Origin: Arthrobacter sp. APC 3897
Lineage (GTDB): Bacteria > Actinomycetota > Actinomycetes > Actinomycetales > Micrococcaceae
Length of the DNA stretch: 64,000 nucleotides
Direction: 5' to 3'
Assembly (NCBI RefSeq): GCF_030407495.1
Contig: NZ_JASDDG010000020.1
Location: 1-64,000 of the forward strand
Part shown: piece by piece, positions 9,239 to 25,534 of the stretch
How the letters are laid out: each line of letters opens with the position of its first letter
Position numbering within the stretch: position 1 is the stretch's first letter
Program-made: the position numbers and the translations under genes
The notes under the pieces: model-generated
Databases searched by the model: none
Seen by the model: only the letters and a program-made list of their open reading frames with translations
What the model was told of the DNA's origin: nothing

Positions 9239-10285
9239 CTAGGCTGCTTCTCCGGTCTGCCCTTCGCGCGCCAGCGCAGTGAGACGGGAAACCGCACGGA
9301 AGTACTTCTTCATATATCCACCGTTCATCATTTCCTCGGTGAAGAGCTGATCGAACGGAACACCGCTTGCAAGGATTGGAACATCCTTGTCATACAGCCG
9401 GTCAGCCAGCACCACAAAACGAAGGGCAACAGACTGCTCGGTGATGGTGGTGACATTGTGCCAGGCAACAGCATCCACCCCGTCGATGAGCTGGCGGTAA
9501 CGGCTCGGATGAACGGTGGAGAGGTGGTTGATAAGGGTGGTGAAATCGTCATCGGCAACAACCTTGCCGCTGAATTCGTCAGCCACACGGCCGTCCAGAT
9601 CCGCTTCGCTGACCGGGTCCGGAGACTGCGGCAGGCCGCGGTGGCGGTAGTCCTCGCCGTCAATGCGCACGACGTCGAACTGGTCGGCCAGGACCTGGAT
9701 CTCACGCTGGAAATCCACGGCGGCAAAACGGCCCTCGCCAAGAGAACCCGGCAGGGTGTTGGAGGTGGCAGCCAGCTTGACGCCGGCGTCGGCCAGTTCC
9801 CGCATCAGGCGGGACATCAGGACCGTGTCCCCCGGATCATCGAGTTCGAATTCATCGATGCAGACCAGCTTGTAGGCGCTCAGGGCGTCAACGGTTTTGC
9901 GGAAGGAGAGCGCTCCCACCAGGTTCGTGTACTCAACGAACGTTCCGAAAGCTTTAGGACCCTCAACCGCGTGCCACAGGGAGGCCAACAGGTGGGTCTT
10001 GCCAACGCCGAAGCCGCCGTCCAGGTAGAAACCGGCCTTGGAGTCAGGCTTCTTGGCACCAAAAAGCTTCCGCAGTCCGGTGGGTTCGGGTACGTCGACA
10101 GCCACGGCAAACTCCCGCATGGCGGTGACGGCCTTCGCCTGCGACGGCTGCGCCGGGTCCGGACGGTAACTGTCGAAAGAAACCTCGCCGAACCGGGGCG
10201 AGGGAAAGAAACCCTTCAGCAGTTCGTCGGTCGAGACCTGGGGAGTCCGCTCTGCAAGGTGCTCCACTTGTGCCACTGTGCGCAA
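9239..10285 (-). CDS. zapE: Cell division protein ZapE (AFG1-like ATPase)
   Basis: A 348-residue AAA-type ATPase of the ZapE/AFG1 family, which in E. coli binds FtsZ and destabilises Z-ring bundles. The Walker A is GGFGVGKT (residues 90-97) and the Walker B is VCIDEFELDDPGD (D144, E145). The sensor Asn in ATSNTLPG and the C-terminal FDQLFTEEM region are also present. Length is normal for the family. It is monocistronic, divergent from the sulfurtransferase across 286 bases and 70 bases upstream of the AraC gene. Confidence 0.9.
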   Translation of the reverse strand: MRTVAQVEHLAERTPQVSTDELLKGFFPSPRFGEVSFDSYRPDPAQPSQAKAVTAMREFAVAVDVPEPTGLRKLFGAKKPDSKAGFYLDGGFGVGKTHLLASLWHAVEGPKAFGTFVEYTNLVGALSFRKTVDALSAYKLVCIDEFELDDPGDTVLMSRLMRELADAGVKLAATSNTLPGSLGEGRFAAVDFQREIQVLADQFDVVRIDGEDYRHRGLPQSPDPVSEADLDGRVADEFSGKVVADDDFTTLINHLSTVHPSRYRQLIDGVDAVAWHNVTTITEQSVALRFVVLADRLYDKDVPILASGVPFDQLFTEEMMNGGYMKKYFRAVSRLTALAREGQTGEAA

Positions 10286-10571
10286 TTTCCGTCCATCCGA
10301 TGTTTTTTAGCCGTCATATTGGGTCCCACGGTACTGCGGACAGTGGTACCAAGCCTGCCGCCGGCAAAATGCCGCCGTTGCAACGATACGCCAACAGTGC
10401 GTGTCCAACCTCTACAGGACGTCCTGTTTCGGCGCCACGGATCACGCCGGGAATAACGCCGGTGGACCTGCAGGAAGTTTTCGCCGGCGCACATCGTTAG
10501 GCTAGAGGTAAGCCCGTGCCGCCGCTTTCGCGTCCGGCAGCAGAGAATCTGACCCGAAAGAGGCCGCGTAC

Positions 10572-16229: not shown

Positions 16230-16775
16230 GTGGAACACGGCGTCTTTCCGGGAGAGCTGGTTCCTTCTCCGGAAGTCACCGATGAGGCGATCGACAGCTA
16301 CCGGCTGCTTAGCGCCGATATTGCTTCCGGGGTGGCTGTTGTCTCCACCCGGCTGCGCGGCCGTGACTACGCGGCAACGGTCAGCGGGTTCCTTTCGGTT
16401 TCCTACGATCCGCCCACACTGCTGGTGAGTTTATACGCCGACTCCCGAATCGCCGAGGCCGTACTGGACAGCGGCACCTGGGCGCTGAGCCTGCTCTCCG
16501 CCCGCCAGCGCGGCACCGCCAACTGGCTGGCCAGCCCCGGATCCCCGCTGGAGGGACTGCTCAGCCAGGTTGACTACGGTCGCGGTCCCGCCACCGGAGC
16601 CGCCGTCATCGAAGGCTGCATCGCCTGGTTTGAGGTGCGTACCACGCAGGTGACGGCGGCGGCCACCCATCAGTTGGTGGTGGGCGAAGTGCTGGCAATG
16701 GGGCGGCGTGCAACAGCTGGCGACGAGGCCGATCCGCTGGTGCACTTCGCGTCCGCCTACGGCCGGCTCGCCTGA
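16230..16775 (+). CDS. Flavin reductase family protein
   Basis: A 181-residue FMN-binding split-barrel protein of the flavin reductase / HpaC type. Typical segments are SGVAVVSTRLRGRDYAATVSGF and SYDPPTLLVSL near the N-terminus, and LSLLSARQRGTANWLAS in the middle. The C-terminal half carries GCIAWFEVRT and HQLVVGEVLAM. It would supply reduced flavin to a monooxygenase or reduce flavin-linked substrates; no cognate oxygenase is adjacent. The GTG start at 16230 lies only four bases after msrB, so translation may be coupled. A strong terminator follows. Confidence 0.85.
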   Translation: MEHGVFPGELVPSPEVTDEAIDSYRLLSADIASGVAVVSTRLRGRDYAATVSGFLSVSYDPPTLLVSLYADSRIAEAVLDSGTWALSLLSARQRGTANWLASPGSPLEGLLSQVDYGRGPATGAAVIEGCIAWFEVRTTQVTAAATHQLVVGEVLAMGRRATAGDEADPLVHFASAYGRLA

Positions 16776-16821
16776 TTCGAACAGCATTCCGCTGAAGGAA
16801 CCCAAGAACCAGTATCAGAGA

Positions 16822-16858
16822 GGCCCGGACGCTTTACTCCTTGGCGTCCGGGCCTTTT
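16822..16858 (+). terminator. Rho-independent terminator after the flavin reductase gene
   Basis: GGCCCGGACGC (16822-16832) and GCGTCCGGGCC (16844-16854) form a perfect 11-bp stem with an 11-base loop, followed by TTTT. It isolates the msrB unit from the EncFtn-like gene. Confidence 0.85.
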
Positions 16859-16990
16859 GCGTGTCTCCCCCGGACCCCGAAGGGTTGACCATTGTCTCGC
16901 CGCAGCCCCAACCGTAACCTCGAAGGACAGGGCACACTACGCGAACCGCGCCGATTCCGGGGCGCAACGGGGCCGCACCAGGAGACGAGC

Positions 16991-17329
16991 ATGGGCACAG
17001 AGCAGTATCACGAGCCGCCATCGGAACTTCCCGCTGAAACCAGGACCTTCGCGCGGATGTGCGCCAGCCTGAGCGAAGAGGCTGAAGCTATCGGTTGGTA
17101 CGTCCAGCGGATGGCCGTTGAGCCCGACGCCGAGTCCCGGGCCATCATGCACGATTCCCTCGGCGAGGAGTTCAAGCACTTCAGCATGGAGTTGGAGTTC
17201 CTGTTGCGCCGGACGCCGTTATGGCGGGAAATTGCACGGGGAATCCTCTTTACCGACGGAGACATTGTGCAGCACGGCGAGGCCTCCGAAGCCGAAGCCA
17301 CCGGAGACGACGACGCTTCCGGCGGTTGA
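16991..17329 (+). CDS. EncFtn-type ferritin-like protein (encapsulated-ferritin family)
   Basis: 112 residues with the short two-helix ferritin-like fold of encapsulated ferritins. The order HEPPSELPAETR, SEEAEAIGWYVQR, EEFKHFSMELEFLLRR and LFTDGDI follows the family closely. The ferroxidase residues are kept with family spacing: E30 (with E29 and E32), W36, Y37, E60 (with E59) and H63. In EncFtn these form an iron site at a subunit interface and the protein works inside an encapsulin shell. Two things are odd. No encapsulin gene is present in this window, and the acidic C-terminus (EASEAEATGDDDASGG) lacks the usual hydrophobic-Gly-Ser-Leu cargo peptide. The ATG at 16991 follows CAGGAG. A V/A-type ATPase operon begins 146 bases downstream. 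Confidence 0.8.
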   Translation: MGTEQYHEPPSELPAETRTFARMCASLSEEAEAIGWYVQRMAVEPDAESRAIMHDSLGEEFKHFSMELEFLLRRTPLWREIARGILFTDGDIVQHGEASEAEATGDDDASGG

Positions 17330-17392
17330 GCGAAACCAGCCGCCGCCCGGTTCTGTTACTGCGGCCCGCTGCTGGCAGGCACGGCCCACTGC

Positions 17393-17452
17393 GCAGGACA
17401 CGATTCAGCGGGACGCGGTTTAGCAGGACACGGTTTAGCAGCACACGGCACA
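17393..17452 (+). repeat. Four imperfect 15-bp tandem repeats before the ATPase operon
   Basis: Units run 17393-17407, 17408-17422, 17423-17437 and 17438-17452. The sequences are GCAGGACACGATTCA, GCGGGACGCGGTTTA, GCAGGACACGGTTTA and GCAGCACACGGCACA. They sit between the EncFtn-like gene and the ATG at 17476. They could be regulator sites, mRNA structure or simple slippage; the sequence cannot decide. Confidence 0.7.
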
Positions 17453-17475
17453 ACTGCTTCCCAGGAGGTGCATCA

Positions 17476-17961
17476 ATGGCACGCAACAGTTTGCTCGACC
17501 GGTTCCGGCCTGTGGGCGCGCCCGGACCCGCCGGCCCTTCAGGAGTGCCTGCGACGGATGACCAGGGTCCGGAAGCTGAACTTGTTCCGGTGTTTGAGGC
17601 TCTCGATCCAACCATCCGCGACGGCAGAATGCTGGTTGACGACGCGGCAGCGCGGGCAGCGGACGCCGTTTCCCAGGCCCGGACCAGGGCGGCAGCCATG
17701 GTTGAACAAGCCCGGATGGACAGCGGCGCAGTGCGGGCCAACGCCGCCGCCGAAGTCTCCCGGGAGGCCGAAACCGCGGACAAGAACATGCTGCGCCAAG
17801 CCGATGAAGAGGCGGCGGAGCTGAAGCGCAGAGGTGAGTCCCGGCTACCGCAGCTGGCTGCTGCCATTGTGGCGGACCTGGTGAGTGATCTGCTCGGCTC
17901 AAGCCCGGAGCAGGACGAAGGTCCTGATGACAGGCAGCGCGGAAAAGATGAAGGCGCATGA
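17476..17961 (+). CDS. V/A-type ATPase peripheral stalk subunit (G/H-like)
   Basis: 161 residues. A disordered Pro/Gly-rich head (about 1-45) is followed by a long Ala/Glu/Arg heptad-rich helix (about 50-140) with segments DDAAARAADAVSQAR, ARTRAAAMVEQAR and ADEEAAELKRRGE. This matches the coiled-coil G/H stalk subunit that pairs with subunit E in V/A ATPases. The assignment rests on composition and on position as first gene of the operon; the sequence itself is weakly conserved. The start has a strong site (CCAGGAGGTG). Its stop overlaps the subunit C start as ATGA. Confidence 0.65.
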   Translation: MARNSLLDRFRPVGAPGPAGPSGVPATDDQGPEAELVPVFEALDPTIRDGRMLVDDAAARAADAVSQARTRAAAMVEQARMDSGAVRANAAAEVSREAETADKNMLRQADEEAAELKRRGESRLPQLAAAIVADLVSDLLGSSPEQDEGPDDRQRGKDEGA

Positions 17962-18990
17962 GGTCCGACTGGGTCGCGGCCTCAGTTCGTGCGCGGTCCA
18001 TGGCACAGCGTCGTGTCGGCGCGGGAACCTGCCGCGGAATCGCCGGATCACATAATCTGCGGACAGCGCTGGACCGGCTTGCCGACAGCGCATATGCCGA
18101 TGAAGTGGAATCCGCCCGGACACTCGCTGCGGCTCAGCGTGCCACCCGCAGGACAGTGTTATGGCAGCTGAGAGTTCTGGCCGGCTGGCTCCCGGCGTCA
18201 GGCGCACGGCTGGTTCGCTCAGCAGCCGCTGCGTTCGAAGCGGACAACATCCTGTCCCTGGATCTGCAGCTGCGCCGGGAACAGGCGGCGCAGGCAGCTC
18301 AACCAGCTCAACCAGTGCAGACAGTGCCGACAGTGCAGCAGGTGCAGACCCCCCGGGACAGAGCGGATTCAAACCCCGGACCAGACCCAAACCCGGGTTC
18401 CGTCTCGGGCGGGGACCAACAGCCGTTTGAGCTCGGCGGACTGGCAACAGCGTGGCCGCGGCTCCGGACGGCCGCCAGCGCCGACGAGCTGCGGTCCGCC
18501 CTGGCTTCCTCGCCCTGGGGCGATCCGGGACCGGACGCCGCGCTCTCGGACGTGCTCACGGTGGTGTGGCTGCGCCGGCTCGCCAATGGGGCTCCGACGG
18601 CACGTTCCTGGGCTGCTTCAACGGGTGCCCTGCTCTCTGCCCGCTTGGTCTTTGTTGACGGGTCCGCTCCCGGTGAGCGGTTGTTGTCACTGCTGCGGCC
18701 GCTGATCGGAACCGGCTGGGTGGGTGCCGATTCCCCTGACACCCTGCGGGCCGCCCTTCCCCCGGGGACGGCGCAGGTGCTGAACGGACTGCAGATTCCC
18801 ACCGAACTGTGGCGTGCCGAAGCCATGCTCGCAGCGCGGGTGGAAATGGACGGGTTCCGTCTGCTGCGGGCCGGTTTGCCCGGACCGGACGTTGTCTTGG
18901 GCGCCATGGCGGTATTGGCTGTGGACGCCTGGCGGGTGAGGGCAGCTCTTGCTGCCGCTGCAGTGAACGCAGGAAGCAGCGAGGTGCTCG

Positions 18991-19004
<14 letters not shown>
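17958..19004 (+). CDS. ntpC: V/A-type ATPase subunit C (d/AC39-like)
   Basis: A 348-residue Ala-rich helical protein of the central-stalk socket type that links subunits D/F to the K ring. Recognisable are the early ASVRARSMAQRRVGAG and the LGGLATAWPRLRTAASADE segment before SSPWGDPG. Between residues about 105 and 155 lies a low-complexity Gln/Ala/Pro insert (QPVQTVPTVQQVQTP) that typical subunits lack and that splits the domain. Assignment depends on these motifs and on location between the stalk and membrane subunit genes. Overlaps are ATGA with the previous gene and 14 bases with the next. Confidence 0.7.
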
Positions 19005-21111
<2,107 letters not shown>

Positions 21112-21112
<1 letters not shown>

Positions 21113-21639
21113 TGAGCAAGCTGCCCTCCGGATCCGAAGCCTCCCTTGAGTCTGTCCGTTATGCCCTGAGGCGCCGGGCAGACACGGAAGCAGGGCGTCT
21201 GGCAGAAGATGCCCGGGCCCAGTCCGAGTCCATCCTCGCCGCCGCGGGCGCCGAAGCGGAGGAGATCCGGAAAACGGCCGAGCGGCAGGGCCGCGAAGCT
21301 GCCCGCACGGAGGCTGCCGGCCGGTCCGCACGCATCCGCAGGCAGGCACGGCGCACCGTCCTGGCCCAGCAGGAGGCCCTCCGCGCCGAACTGATCCAAC
21401 AGGTTCAGCACCAGGCACAGGAGCTCCGCAGTGATCCCCGCTATCCCCGGATGCTGCGTATCCTCACCGAACGGGCGGACAGCATTCTGGGGCCCATGGC
21501 GTCGGTGACGGAGAGCTACAAGGGCGGGGTGAACGCCACGGCAGGGTCCAGGCACCTGGATTTCTCGCTGCCCGCGCTGGCCGAGCAGGCACTGGCGAAC
21601 CGTGCCGGCGAGGTGCCCCTGCTATGGGCCGCCGAGTGA
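21112..21639 (+). CDS. ntpE: V/A-type ATPase subunit E (peripheral stalk)
   Basis: 175 residues. A long charged helix (about 15-110), with AEDARAQSESILAAAGAEAEE and RRQARRTVLAQQEALRAEL, precedes a small C-terminal globular part, as in subunit E. It pairs with the G/H-like protein to make the stator. The C-terminal part is shorter than in archaeal E. Its stop overlaps the subunit A start. Position and coiled-coil pattern are the main evidence, since this subunit diverges fast. Confidence 0.75.
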
Positions 21640-23459
21640 GCGCCGCCGGCACCGGTTCCGGGCCTGAAGCAGGAACCATCACCCGGGTCAGCGGACCCCT
21701 GGTGGAAATCACCGGCCTGCACGGACTGTCCATGCTGGAAATCGTGGCCATCGGCCCGGAACGGATCTCCGCCCAGGTAGTGGCGATCAACGGAGAAAAC
21801 GCCACCCTCCAGGCCTACGAATACACCGGCGGCCTGAAGTCCGGAGACCGCGCGGAACGCTCCGGCCACCAGCTTTCCGGCCTGCTGGGCCCCGGGCTGC
21901 TGGGAACAGTCTTCGACGGGCTGCTGCGTCCCCTTTCCTCCGCTCCCCTGTGGCTGACCCAGGACCGGCAGGCCTCCGCGGAAGATCCGGCGGTGCTGGA
22001 AACCGAGTGGGGATTCACCCCTTCGGTGAAGGTCGGCGACACGGTGCAGCCCGGGCAGGTCATCGGCACGGTTCCGGAAGCGGGCACCGTGGAATTCCGT
22101 GTCATGGTGCCGCCCGCCGTGGCCGGCGTCGTCCAATGGCTCGCCGACGGTCCTGTCCATCCGCTGGACCCGGTGGCACGCGTGGACGGCGTTGAAGTGC
22201 CGCTTGCCCAGCAGTGGCCTGTGCATACCGCGAGGCCCTTCGGCGAGCGCCTGACCGAGGCACTGCCCCTGCACACGGGACAGCGGGTCCTGGATCTGCT
22301 CTTCCCCCTCCCCCGCGGCTCGGCGGCCGCCGTCCCGGGAGGCTTCGGCACGGGCAAGACCCTCACCCTGCAGCAGATCGCCAAGTGGTCCGACGCCGAC
22401 GTCATTGTCTATGTGGGCTGCGGCGAGCGCGGCAATGAAATGGCCGATGTGCTGGACGGCCTCTCCGATCTGGAGGATCCCCGGACCGGAGGAAAACTGA
22501 TCGACCGCACCGTGATCATTGCCAATACCTCCAACATGCCCATGATGGCCAGGGAGGCTTCCATCGCCAGCGGAGTCACCGTCGCGGAGTTCTTCCGCGA
22601 CATGGGGTATGACGCCGTCGTCATTGCGGACTCCACCTCACGGTGGGCCGAGGCCCTGCGTGAGTTCGCCAACCGCAACGGCGATCTCCCGGCTGAGGAA
22701 GGCTATCCGGCCTCACTGGCCAGTGAACTGTCCGCCTTCTACGAACGCGCGGCCCGCGTCCGCACCCTTGGCGGTGCAACGGCGTCGGTCACCGTCATTG
22801 GAGCTGTGTCCCCTCCCGGCGGAGACATGAGCGAACCGGTAACCACGGATACCCAGCGCTTTGTCCGCTCGCTCTGGGTGCTGGACCGCGAGCTCGCCTA
22901 CTCCCGGCACTATCCTGCGGTCAGCTGGCGCGGTTCCTTCTCCCGTGACGCGGAGGCCCTGGCCCGCTGGCACTCCGCCAACGGGGATCCGTTGTGGGCC
23001 CGGCGCCGGGCTTCGGCCACTCTGCTGCTCTCCGAAGCGGACCGGCTGACTGCCCTGGCCGAGATCATCGGCACCTCCTCGCTGCCCGGGCATGAACAGA
23101 TGGTGCTGCTGGGCGGGCGGTTGGTGCGCGACGGCGTCCTGCTCCAGAACGCGCTCAGTCCCAATGACGGCTACTCCTCGGCGGAGAAGGGTTCTGCCCT
23201 GCTGCAGATTGTGCTGGACGTGGTTGATGCCTGCCAGGCGCTGGTGGCGCGCGGAGTGCCGGCCGCCGACGTCGAACGCGTGGATTTCACCCCTATTCTC
23301 CGGCTGCGGGAGAACACCGGCCCCACCGACGCCGACGGAGTGTGGGCGCAGGGCCGCGGATTCTTGGCCCGGCTGCAGCAAATGGACGGAACCGGGCCTG
23401 ACCGTCCGGACCACGGCAGAGCCACGGAATCTTCAGGAGGCATCGATGGCGGCACATGA
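21624..23459 (+). CDS. ntpA: V/A-type ATPase catalytic subunit A
   Basis: 611 residues, normal for subunit A. It contains the N-terminal barrel, the large A-specific insert, and the catalytic domain with Walker A PGGFGTGKT (K245 counted from ATG 21624). KWSDADVIVYVGCGERGNEM carries the catalytic Glu, and DSTSRWAEALREF and SPPGGDMSEPV follow. All ATP-hydrolysis residues are present, so the enzyme should be active. A GTG at 21636 overlaps the subunit E stop as GTGA and may be the true start. A purifying-type intact frame argues against decay. Family knowledge: the A3B3 hexamer drives ion transport through subunits D, F and C and the K ring. Confidence 0.95.
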   Translation: MGRRVSAAGTGSGPEAGTITRVSGPLVEITGLHGLSMLEIVAIGPERISAQVVAINGENATLQAYEYTGGLKSGDRAERSGHQLSGLLGPGLLGTVFDGLLRPLSSAPLWLTQDRQASAEDPAVLETEWGFTPSVKVGDTVQPGQVIGTVPEAGTVEFRVMVPPAVAGVVQWLADGPVHPLDPVARVDGVEVPLAQQWPVHTARPFGERLTEALPLHTGQRVLDLLFPLPRGSAAAVPGGFGTGKTLTLQQIAKWSDADVIVYVGCGERGNEMADVLDGLSDLEDPRTGGKLIDRTVIIANTSNMPMMAREASIASGVTVAEFFRDMGYDAVVIADSTSRWAEALREFANRNGDLPAEEGYPASLASELSAFYERAARVRTLGGATASVTVIGAVSPPGGDMSEPVTTDTQRFVRSLWVLDRELAYSRHYPAVSWRGSFSRDAEALARWHSANGDPLWARRRASATLLLSEADRLTALAEIIGTSSLPGHEQMVLLGGRLVRDGVLLQNALSPNDGYSSAEKGSALLQIVLDVVDACQALVARGVPAADVERVDFTPILRLRENTGPTDADGVWAQGRGFLARLQQMDGTGPDRPDHGRATESSGGIDGGT

Positions 23460-24927
23460 CGGCACACAGAACCCGGTGCTTCCCGGCGTGCCCGTTCCTG
23501 ATCCCGCAGGTTCCCGCAGTGAGCCGGCTTTATCCGTCCCCCGTGTCGGCTACAGCGACGTGCGTGAGCTGCGCGGGCCGCTGCTGGTGCTGGGCGACGC
23601 CGACGGCGTTGGCTGGGATGAGTTCGCGACCGTGGCCGTCGCGGGACAGCCGGAGCGGCATGGCCTGGTGCTCGAGGTGGACGGGGATGAAACCACCCTG
23701 CAGGTGTTTGAAGGAACCGAGGGCTTGTCGCTGGGCGGCATAGAGGTCCGTTTCTCGGGGCGCCCGCTGGCAGTTCCCTCGGGCCCCGGCTGGCTGGGCC
23801 GGGTCTGCAACGGGCGCGGCGAGCCGCTTGACGGCGGCCCTCCAGTGACGGGCGGAGCGCCGACGCCGGTGGGCGGCTGGCCGTTGAACCCCGTCTACCG
23901 AGAACCCCCTCAAGACCCCGTGCTGACGGGCATCTCCGCCATCGATGCCCTCACCACGCTGGTCCGTGGCCAGAAGCTGCCGATCTTCTCGGTCCCCGGT
24001 CTGCCCCACCTCACCCTCGCAACCCAAATTGCCGCCCAGGCCACCACCTCCTCCGGCCGGGCCTTCCGGGTGGTGTTTGCGGCCATGGGCATGACGCACG
24101 CCGACATTGCCTACATCCGGGACAGACTCGAAGAGCGCTCGGCCGCCGGCGAACTGGTGCTGTTGCTTAACGCCGCCGATGATCCGGTGATCGAACGCAT
24201 CCTCACGCCCCGCATTGCCCTGACGGTGGCCGAGTCCCTCGCCTATGACCACGGTTCCGATGTCCTGGTGGTCATGTCGGATATGACCAGCTACGCCGAG
24301 GCAGTCCGCGAAGTTTCCGCCGCCCGGCGGGAGATCCCGGCCCGCCGCGGCTATCCCGGCTACCTGTACAGCGATCTGGCAACTCTCTATGAGCGCTGCG
24401 GCCGGGTGCAGGGCAGGGAGGGCTCCGTGACCATTGTGCCGGTCCTGACCATGCCGGCCGGAGACATCACCCATCCCGTCCCCGACCTCACCGGATACAT
24501 CACCGAAGGGCAGGTGGTCCTGGATCCGGACATCGATGCGCGGGGTATTTACCCGCCCGTGGATGAACTGTCCTCGCTGTCCCGGCTGATGCGCAGCGGT
24601 GCGGGCAAGGGCCGCACCCGTGAGGATCATCTTGACGTGGCCGCCCAGATTCTCTCGGCCATGGCCCGCGCGCGGTCCGCCGCGGAACTGGCCGAACTGG
24701 TGGGAACGGCAGCCCTCAGCGAGACCGATAACGCCTACATAGAGTTCCGCGATGTGGTGGAGCATGACCTGCTCAACCAGGGCAGGGACGAGCTGCGGAC
24801 CTTCGAACAAACCATGACGCGTGCCTGGCAGGCACTGTCACTGCTGCCCCGGCGTGAGCTGAACATGCTGTCCGCCGAGTTCCTGGACAAGTATCTGCCG
24901 GGTCCTGTGGGCGGTGCACGGCTGTGA
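23446..24927 (+). CDS. ntpB: V/A-type ATPase regulatory subunit B
   Basis: 493 residues. The B-type non-catalytic nucleotide-site remnant appears as LVRGQKLPIFSVPGLPH, which replaces a true Walker A. VVFAAMGMTHADIAYIRD, MSDMTSYAEAVREVSAARREIP and ARRGYPGYLYSDLATLYERCG are hallmark segments. Length is slightly longer than average. The ATG at 23446 has CAGGAGG in front and overlaps the subunit A end by 14 bases. Its stop is seven bases before subunit D. Confidence 0.95.
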   Translation: MAAHDGTQNPVLPGVPVPDPAGSRSEPALSVPRVGYSDVRELRGPLLVLGDADGVGWDEFATVAVAGQPERHGLVLEVDGDETTLQVFEGTEGLSLGGIEVRFSGRPLAVPSGPGWLGRVCNGRGEPLDGGPPVTGGAPTPVGGWPLNPVYREPPQDPVLTGISAIDALTTLVRGQKLPIFSVPGLPHLTLATQIAAQATTSSGRAFRVVFAAMGMTHADIAYIRDRLEERSAAGELVLLLNAADDPVIERILTPRIALTVAESLAYDHGSDVLVVMSDMTSYAEAVREVSAARREIPARRGYPGYLYSDLATLYERCGRVQGREGSVTIVPVLTMPAGDITHPVPDLTGYITEGQVVLDPDIDARGIYPPVDELSSLSRLMRSGAGKGRTREDHLDVAAQILSAMARARSAAELAELVGTAALSETDNAYIEFRDVVEHDLLNQGRDELRTFEQTMTRAWQALSLLPRRELNMLSAEFLDKYLPGPVGGARL

Positions 24928-24934
24928 GCGGGAT

Positions 24935-25534
24935 ATGAGCGGGTTCCGCAGCACCGGCAGCCGTGCCGACAGGGCCGATGTTGAGCGCCGTCTGGCAACC
25001 GCCACCCGGGGTGCCGAACTGCTGGACCGCAAACAGCGCATTCTCCGGCTCGCTATCGACGGGCTGCAGGAGGAGGCGGATGCCGCCCGCCTCGCGTGGC
25101 AGGAACAGGCCCGCCGGGCTGCCGTGTGGCTGCAGCGTGCCGCCGGATTGGACGGTGATGACCGGATCATTGAGTCAGCACCGGATGACCCCGCCCGGGT
25201 GACGGTTCAGTGGGGCGGGAGCATGGGCATCTCTTATCCGCAGGGTGCCGAGTGTCTGCTCCCCGTTCCGCCCCCGACCGGCGGGAGTTCGGCTCTGGCT
25301 TATGCCGCCGCAGCGCACCGGGAAGCCCTGCAATCCGCAGTCACTGCGGCGAGCACCGAGCGGGCTCTGCTCCTGGTGTCCCGGGAACTGCTCGCCACCC
25401 GCACCCGGCAGCGTGCCGTCGAGAACCGCTGGATTCCCCGGCTGCAGGATCAGCTCACAGAGATTGGACGGCGAATCGCCGAACAGGAGTTGGAGGAAAG
25501 CCTGCGGCTGCGTTGGTCTGCCGGGCTGGTCTGA
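24935..25534 (+). CDS. ntpD: V/A-type ATPase subunit D (central rotor)
   Basis: 199 residues with two long helices (about 10-70 and 120-195), as expected for the coiled-coil rotor shaft. LLDRKQRILRLAIDGL near the N-terminus and LATRTRQRAVENRWIPRLQD near the C-terminus follow the family pattern of the conserved K..L..... and RRxNALE-like helices. The ATG at 24935 is preferred over an upstream in-frame ATG at 24914 that overlaps subunit B. It is the last gene of the operon, and no clear terminator follows. Confidence 0.88.
   Translation: MSGFRSTGSRADRADVERRLATATRGAELLDRKQRILRLAIDGLQEEADAARLAWQEQARRAAVWLQRAAGLDGDDRIIESAPDDPARVTVQWGGSMGISYPQGAECLLPVPPPTGGSSALAYAAAAHREALQSAVTAASTERALLLVSRELLATRTRQRAVENRWIPRLQDQLTEIGRRIAEQELEESLRLRWSAGLV

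Follow-up and report, generated by a model that had tools for sequence, protein, structure and literature searches.

The best described relatives of the protein reported here are the classical EncFtn proteins, also termed FLP-TP (PF22277, TIGR04535), with representatives in R. rubrum (Rru_A0973) and H. ochraceum. They are cargo proteins with a C-terminal targeting peptide of the LGIGSLK type and an encapsulin gene that is adjacent or elsewhere in the genome. In the excerpts of He et al. (2016; PMC5012862) used here, EncFtn is described as oxidizing Fe(II) at a site formed by two subunits and as accruing no mineral on its own, while according to the available part of a review (PMC7762939) the holding of mineral by EncFtn needs the shell. 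The same excerpts of He et al. set a 'Non-EncFtn' group without an encapsulin sequence beside EncFtn, and a peptide-less group has thus been on record since 2016. The short, peptide-less proteins are named s-FLP in a 2024 review (PMC11202242), for which N. europaea NE0167 (PDB entry 3k6c) is an example. In the accessible text of this review they are said to have first been classed as non-encapsulated, it is considered that they might be encapsulated nonetheless, and a putative, uncharacterized targeting sequence, LFTD(E/N)KPIAHE, is proposed. The other system of relevance is the bacterial V/A-type ATPase of the Thermus thermophilus type, with genes for subunits A, B, D, E, F, I, K and C and a G-like subunit.

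The window analysed here is a stretch of 64 000 nucleotides from Arthrobacter sp. APC 3897. It holds the same nine ATPase genes, which, among the genomes examined, are headed by an EncFtn gene in this genus only. Our searches of open-licence PMC papers found no account of EncFtn beside a V/A-ATPase or of a shell-less EncFtn in Arthrobacter; two of the papers found mention Arthrobacter, in the available passages solely as a test organism. As far as these searches show, the genus-wide absence of a shell gene at the genome level, the rule that links peptide and shell, the coexistence of tagged and tail-less paralogues and the ATPase operon with its independent losses are new. We consider it likely that the protein is a cytosolic, shell-independent EncFtn ferroxidase that is transcribed with the ATPase but is not required by it.

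The EncFtn-type protein and its C-terminus

The gene at 16991..17329 (forward strand), with AGGAG just 5' of its ATG, encodes an EncFtn-type ferroxidase subunit of 112 amino acids. The protein matches the EncFtn-like family PF22277 (2.9e-19; 69.1 bits, cut-off 27), and its best PDB sequence matches (33bf, 5da5, 7oe2, 5n5f and 3k6c; 2e-14 to 6e-11) are EncFtn proteins. Identity to the Rru_A0973 chains, mutants included, is 37–41%. This confirms the family assignment made in the preliminary description, which had also picked out the correct site residues: E30, E60, H63, W36 and Y37 align with E32, E62, H65, W38 and Y39 of R. rubrum EncFtn. The R. rubrum residues are named as in the excerpts of PMC5012862, except for W38, which is placed by alignment only. 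The ferroxidase residues E32, E62, H65 and Y39 are therefore all present as E30, E60, H63 and Y37, and an alignment with 39 tail-less and 61 tagged relatives shows E29, E30, W36, Y37, E59, E60 and H63 to be invariant.

An AlphaFold2 model built from 41 sequences (mean pLDDT 91.2) predicts helices at residues 15–43, 47–73, 76–85 and 92–104, in agreement with the two-helix subunit fold and short C-terminal helix of the EncFtn family. It superposes on EncFtn chains from R. rubrum, H. ochraceum and N. europaea with TM-scores, normalized to the target, of 0.88–0.92 (46 matches, E ≤ 0.001), and the modelled similarity to the 3k6c chains spans this same range (0.88–0.92). Fold, length of the helical core and di-iron residues are thus those of classical EncFtn. 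The differences lie in the C-terminus and in the shell: the chain ends in ...GDIVQHGEASEAEATGDDDASGG without a targeting peptide of the LGIGSLK type, there is no adjacent encapsulin gene and none was detected in the genome. The lack of a cargo peptide had been noted before and is borne out by the protein sequence and its alignment with relatives.

In being short, without a long tail or apparent targeting peptide, the protein resembles the 'Non-EncFtn' or s-FLP proteins; here, the search for a shell took in whole genomes from across a genus. Residues 86–97, LFTDGDIVQHGE, match the targeting sequence proposed for s-FLP, as judged from a purely visual comparison with the form in N. europaea. This stretch falls in alignment columns common to tagged and tail-less proteins, upstream of the tagged peptide, which argues against a targeting signal. 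The protein scores 46 bits against 3k6c and 54 bits against tagged R. rubrum EncFtn (bit scores only being compared), and it is 65–76% identical to 21 tagged actinobacterial proteins (alignment A1). Its tail state therefore probably changed separately from that of the 3k6c form. The nearest relatives outside the tail-less group are tagged actinobacterial EncFtn–encapsulin pairs (L012, L038, L116 and L120 among them), which have a peptide and usually a shell gene a few nucleotides downstream, whereas complete tail-less copies stand alone.

The NCBIfam model TIGR04535 gives the protein 76.1 bits against a curated cut-off of 125 bits. This cut-off does not discriminate cargo status, as five tagged actinobacterial forms that were tried also reach only 78–91 bits. 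An anti-phage role was rejected after a PADLOC search gave no match.

Encapsulin genes, targeting peptides and ancestry

The assembly of Arthrobacter sp. APC 3897 (3.79 Mb, 60 contigs, completeness 100) contains a single EncFtn copy, and a search with the encapsulin family PF04454 gave nothing at E ≤ 10. PF19307 is likewise without a match at E ≤ 10, although as a family that matched one of 14 control genomes, below the cut-off, it is a weak control. Profile searches find EncFtn in 26 of the 29 genomes of the genus and PF04454 over the cut-off in 0 of 29. The preliminary description had offered a shell-free EncFtn as its first alternative; the full-genome search supports it and extends it to the genus. 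Sub-cut-off matches to PF04454 occur in nine of the 29 genomes (ten rows, best E 0.018). We read them as false, because eight of the ten rows cover the same 38–43 model positions (positions 75–117 at most) and the two that were fetched (L108 and L109) are SpoU rRNA methylases.

Outside the genus, 25 of the 26 EncFtn genomes in a family sample of 295 genomes match PF04454, by which measure the search is sensitive; the match in G083 is a fragment near a contig start. In G043, the sole negative, the only EncFtn is tail-less. EncFtn exceeds the cut-off in ten of 396 genomes sampled across the order and falls below it in an eleventh (G479). Five of the ten have encapsulin and five do not, the latter being three of the genus, G043 and G575, where the EncFtn copy is also tail-less.

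The relation between peptide and shell was assessed for EncFtn proteins from 80 named loci (the best 80 of 288 found), the genus genomes and fetched stretches from genomes in the family and order samples, in all 146 rows with 109 distinct proteins. Sixty-three of these combine an LGIGSLK-type peptide with an encapsulin within the fetched stretch. Neither is present for 44, of which 43 are complete and one (L050) is truncated where its contig stops. The remaining two are L032, with a peptide and no encapsulin in the fetched stretch, and L152, with a masked run at the tail position. Among tagged relatives whose tail could be read, 63 of 64 therefore have an encapsulin gene in the fetched stretch. 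The stretches extend for about 1.5–10 kb per side, some being cut by contig ends, so that 'no encapsulin' here means not nearby; genome-wide absence was tested for the genomes with G numbers only. L032 is a Skermania EncFtn (10001–10387) with a targeting-like peptide, SLDIGGL, for which no encapsulin was found in a 20 kb stretch.

None of the 26 copies in the genus has a tail. The reading frame of the copy in G023 (L107, G023:C1) is shifted near its start, and L011 has several ATPase matches that are shorter than those of other loci, pointing to sequencing errors. The family sample outside the genus holds 29 copies: 24 beside a shell gene, of which 23 have a visible peptide and one is the masked L152, and five tail-less (G043, G056, G083, G123 and G139). 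The shell gene of L159 was read in two pieces. Tagged and tail-less forms occur together in G056, G123, G139 and Cryobacterium tepidiphilum, where they are 65–78% identical over the first 95 residues. Tagged copies measure 124–143 amino acids and complete tail-less copies 104–126.

A conserved third partner of the tail-less proteins, such as a new shell or a chaperone, was looked for by clustering the neighbouring ORFs (≥70 amino acids, flanks up to 10 kb, with EncFtn and its overlapping frames set aside) of 25 loci, six in the genus and 19 outside. No neighbour is shared widely among the 14 largest clusters, and the candidate was rejected. The widest cluster consists of ABC-transporter ATPases (seven loci), the others comprise at most six, and an MFS-like transporter is found at four.

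A tree was calculated from 102 EncFtn cores over 95 columns, leaving out L050, L107 and L152 and merging identical cores. Of 41 tail-less proteins, 39 share one half of the tree with five tagged ones, and L062 and L079 are in the other half. The tail-less form is spread over two families. Support is weak owing to the few columns, with 52 of the 99 inner branches open. Constraining the 39 tail-less proteins, which were picked after seeing the tree, to a single clade gives a higher likelihood and is not rejected (p 0.81). A single origin of the tail-less form is thus neither shown nor rejected by the tree and this test. L079 (6130–6450) is from a Chloroflexia metagenome bin, and its position outside the main tail-less group possibly reflects a further loss of the tail.

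Comparison of the window gene with 12 congeners over 98 codons gives dN/dS values of 0.005–0.10, with ten of the 12 dS values above 1, and six closer pairs of tail-less genes give 0–0.13. These codon comparisons indicate strong purifying selection; the gene is therefore no recent accident, nor is it a relic in decay.

The V/A-type ATPase genes and the promoter-like element

Downstream of EncFtn, after a gap of 146 nt (17330..17475), nine ATPase genes follow, as the preliminary description had it, all on the same strand. The first (17476..17961, 161 amino acids) is a G/H-like peripheral-stalk subunit, named from weak matches and position only. Subunits I/a (18991..20433, 480 amino acids), K/c (20430..20888), A (21624..23459), B (23425..24927, start codon uncertain) and D (24914..25534) are over their Pfam cut-offs, while F (20885..21112; E 0.0075) and E (21112..21639; E 0.0018) fall below. 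The gene at 17958..19004 encodes a protein of 348 amino acids with no match in Pfam or NCBIfam. It is assigned by fold as subunit C/d, the rotor cap: its model (pLDDT 87.2) resembles subunit d of the V-ATPase and subunit C of Thermus, in matches with a probability of 1.00 and a modest best E of 1.4e-3. Some actinobacterial V/A-ATPase subunits are therefore missed by the present family models. The N-terminus of subunit I/a is shorter than in the models, the best stretch matching the Pfam model only from about position 313; judged from this alignment, the N-terminal part appears to be short or very diverged.

The gap between EncFtn and the ATPase contains three tandem copies of a unit of about 15 nt at 17393–17448, and a simple terminator scan finds no terminator in it. 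It is the longest of 24: the 24 genomes of the genus that have both EncFtn and the ATPase all have EncFtn directly before the ATPase on the same strand, with gaps of 4–146 nt (middle values 44 and 47) between the EncFtn stop and the first ATPase start. In the genus the two probably belong to one transcription unit, judging from this arrangement. Subunit A is present in 27 of the 29 genomes; the ATPase occurs without EncFtn in three (G001, G006 and G025), and EncFtn without the ATPase in two (G005 and G013), so that presence and loss do not go together. The preceding genes are the same in all five (hydrolase, Usp-like and msrB, with a flavin reductase in addition in G025), and every stretch except that of G025 also shows a thiolase gene on the far side. 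Fragments of EncFtn remain between the promoter-like element described below and the ATPase in L170 and L171, and no nameable fragment is left in L169. Since G025 stands apart from G001 and G006 in a tree of the Usp-like and MsrB proteins, EncFtn was lost at least twice within the genus. Being absent from three of the 29 genomes, it is dispensable there, and the ATPase would not appear to need it.

Outside the genus the arrangement does not recur in the loci and genomes examined. The ATPase lies in the flanks of only 11 of the best 80 named loci (L002–L011 and L016), all labelled Arthrobacter, and near none of the 19 tail-less EncFtn loci of other genera in the neighbour comparison. Subunit A occurs in nine family-sample genomes from other genera. 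Eight of them are without EncFtn; in G079, the remaining one, a tagged copy linked to a shell gene sits on a different contig. The ATPase was accordingly rejected as a general partner of EncFtn. The second alternative of the preliminary description, in which iron handling and ion pumping form a new pair, holds only as a gene order in one genus and, in the material examined, does not recur as a module among homologs. By the criterion set in that description, this weakens a functional pairing, which within the genus keeps a low probability.

Immediately upstream of EncFtn, genome comparison identifies a promoter-like element, CATTGT...TAACCTCGA, at 16890..16923 on the forward strand. It includes a −35-like TTGTCT (16892–16897) and, after a 17 nt spacer, a −10-like TAACCT (16915–16920) that ends 71 nt before the EncFtn ATG. 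In general form it reads CATTGT and, further on, CGTA(A/C)NNTCGA, and it holds TTGTNN and TANNNT at a spacing of 17 or 18 nt in the nine versions measured, with a variable spacer sequence. The loose form precedes EncFtn in 25 of 26 genus genomes (it is absent from L100). The strict form has 14 matches in 2.7 Mb (L001–L081, both strands), all before EncFtn of the genus, that of the window included. The element also precedes the ATPase in all three genus genomes without EncFtn. In other genera it was not seen, either ahead of the ATPase (four loci) or ahead of tail-less EncFtn (17 genes). A generic σ70 scan found no site, the element having come to light only via genome comparison. It probably drives EncFtn and the ATPase as one unit. 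A likely terminator of the preceding gene, a perfect 12 bp inverted repeat followed by TTTT at 16821..16855 (forward strand), would cut this unit off from that gene. In L169, L171 and L009 a long inverted repeat (GCCCGCCGTACGCT ... AGCGTACGGCGGG) with T's after it contains the −10-like part in one of its arms, and the promoter and the upstream terminator seem to overlap. An iron-regulator box of the DtxR/IdeR or Fur type before EncFtn was rejected: the best candidate agrees with the consensus strings at 10 of 19 positions, and the IdeR string reaches 13 positions elsewhere in the window.

Proposed function and alternatives

By homology, the subunit would form two long antiparallel helices with shorter ones, a di-iron site would arise between two subunits and the ring would probably consist of five of these dimers. 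From the EncFtn biochemistry in the excerpts of PMC5012862, the protein should still oxidize Fe(II) without a shell, and it is predicted to do so in the cytosol, outside any encapsulin. Since a ring of this kind has no closed cavity, it could not store the product, and its likely role would be the quick removal of Fe(II) under iron or oxidative stress rather than storage. The ferric iron may pass to ferritin- or Dps-family proteins of the cell or to other ligands. Storage can lie elsewhere, as the genome encodes a ferritin-family protein of 175 amino acids (L132) and a Dps-like protein (L133), both PF00210; the best NCBIfam match of L133 is Dps, at 84 bits against a cut-off of 114. As the predicted first gene of the ATPase transcription unit in this genus, EncFtn would share expression and gene order with the ATPase, with no obligate complex.

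A functional coupling could mean that the pump is protected or served by the ferroxidase, or that its ion gradient benefits iron handling, with selection holding the operon together. It would account for the invariable adjacency, the short gaps and the upkeep of the element where EncFtn is lost. The adjacency is explained by shared descent of gene order, and the absence of recurrence outside the genus, together with the genomes of this and other genera in which one partner exists without the other, weakens the idea to the point where we regard it as unlikely. The same holds for a fuller scenario that we would give little weight, namely that a cargo enzyme became a free-living ferroxidase and was recruited to the V/A-ATPase operon, where it works with the pump from one shared promoter, for example by clearing Fe(II) where ion traffic of the pump or acid stress makes it harmful. 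A missed shell, be it an encapsulin that has diverged strongly, the capsid of a phage or an unknown fold, is suggested by the near-constant company of encapsulin genes among tagged relatives and by the possibility of encapsulation left to short FLPs in the available text of PMC11202242. It is hard to reconcile with a genome that has no PF04454 or PF19307 match even at E ≤ 10, with 26 copies of which none has a targeting peptide, and with 19 tail-less loci outside the genus where no neighbour occurs in more than seven, those seven being transporter ATPases; we hold it to be highly improbable.

That EncFtn is cargo left behind after loss of its shell and drifting to loss itself could be read from the three congeners without the gene, two of which retain fragments. 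We give this scarcely any credence in view of the low dN/dS values, the invariant active site, the retention in 26 of 29 genomes and the maintenance of tail-less copies beside a tagged paralogue in other genera. Binding of another metal, or a main task of carrying iron to ferritin- or Dps-family proteins instead of bulk ferroxidase activity, would suit an open ring that cannot store mineral (as in the excerpts of PMC5012862) and the two PF00210 proteins. The protein retains every ferroxidase ligand and the near-site tyrosine, as in active EncFtn, which makes this a very unlikely main function. A cytosolic, shell-independent ferroxidase is thus the reading we prefer. The genus, of which there are many isolates, keeps EncFtn under strong selection with no over-cut-off shell gene in 29 genomes, and some sister genera keep both kinds. 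The role of an EncFtn ring without a shell becomes directly testable, and the natural tagged and untagged pairs allow the study of a cargo gaining or losing its shell.

Directly before EncFtn, at 16230–16775, lies a flavin reductase-like gene (PF01613) that is found in part of the genus only. It is a possible source of reductant for ferric iron, although not a conserved one. An msrB gene and a Usp-like gene, the latter with a match below the cut-off, are also near EncFtn, and this gene order, while only suggestive, fits a stress setting.
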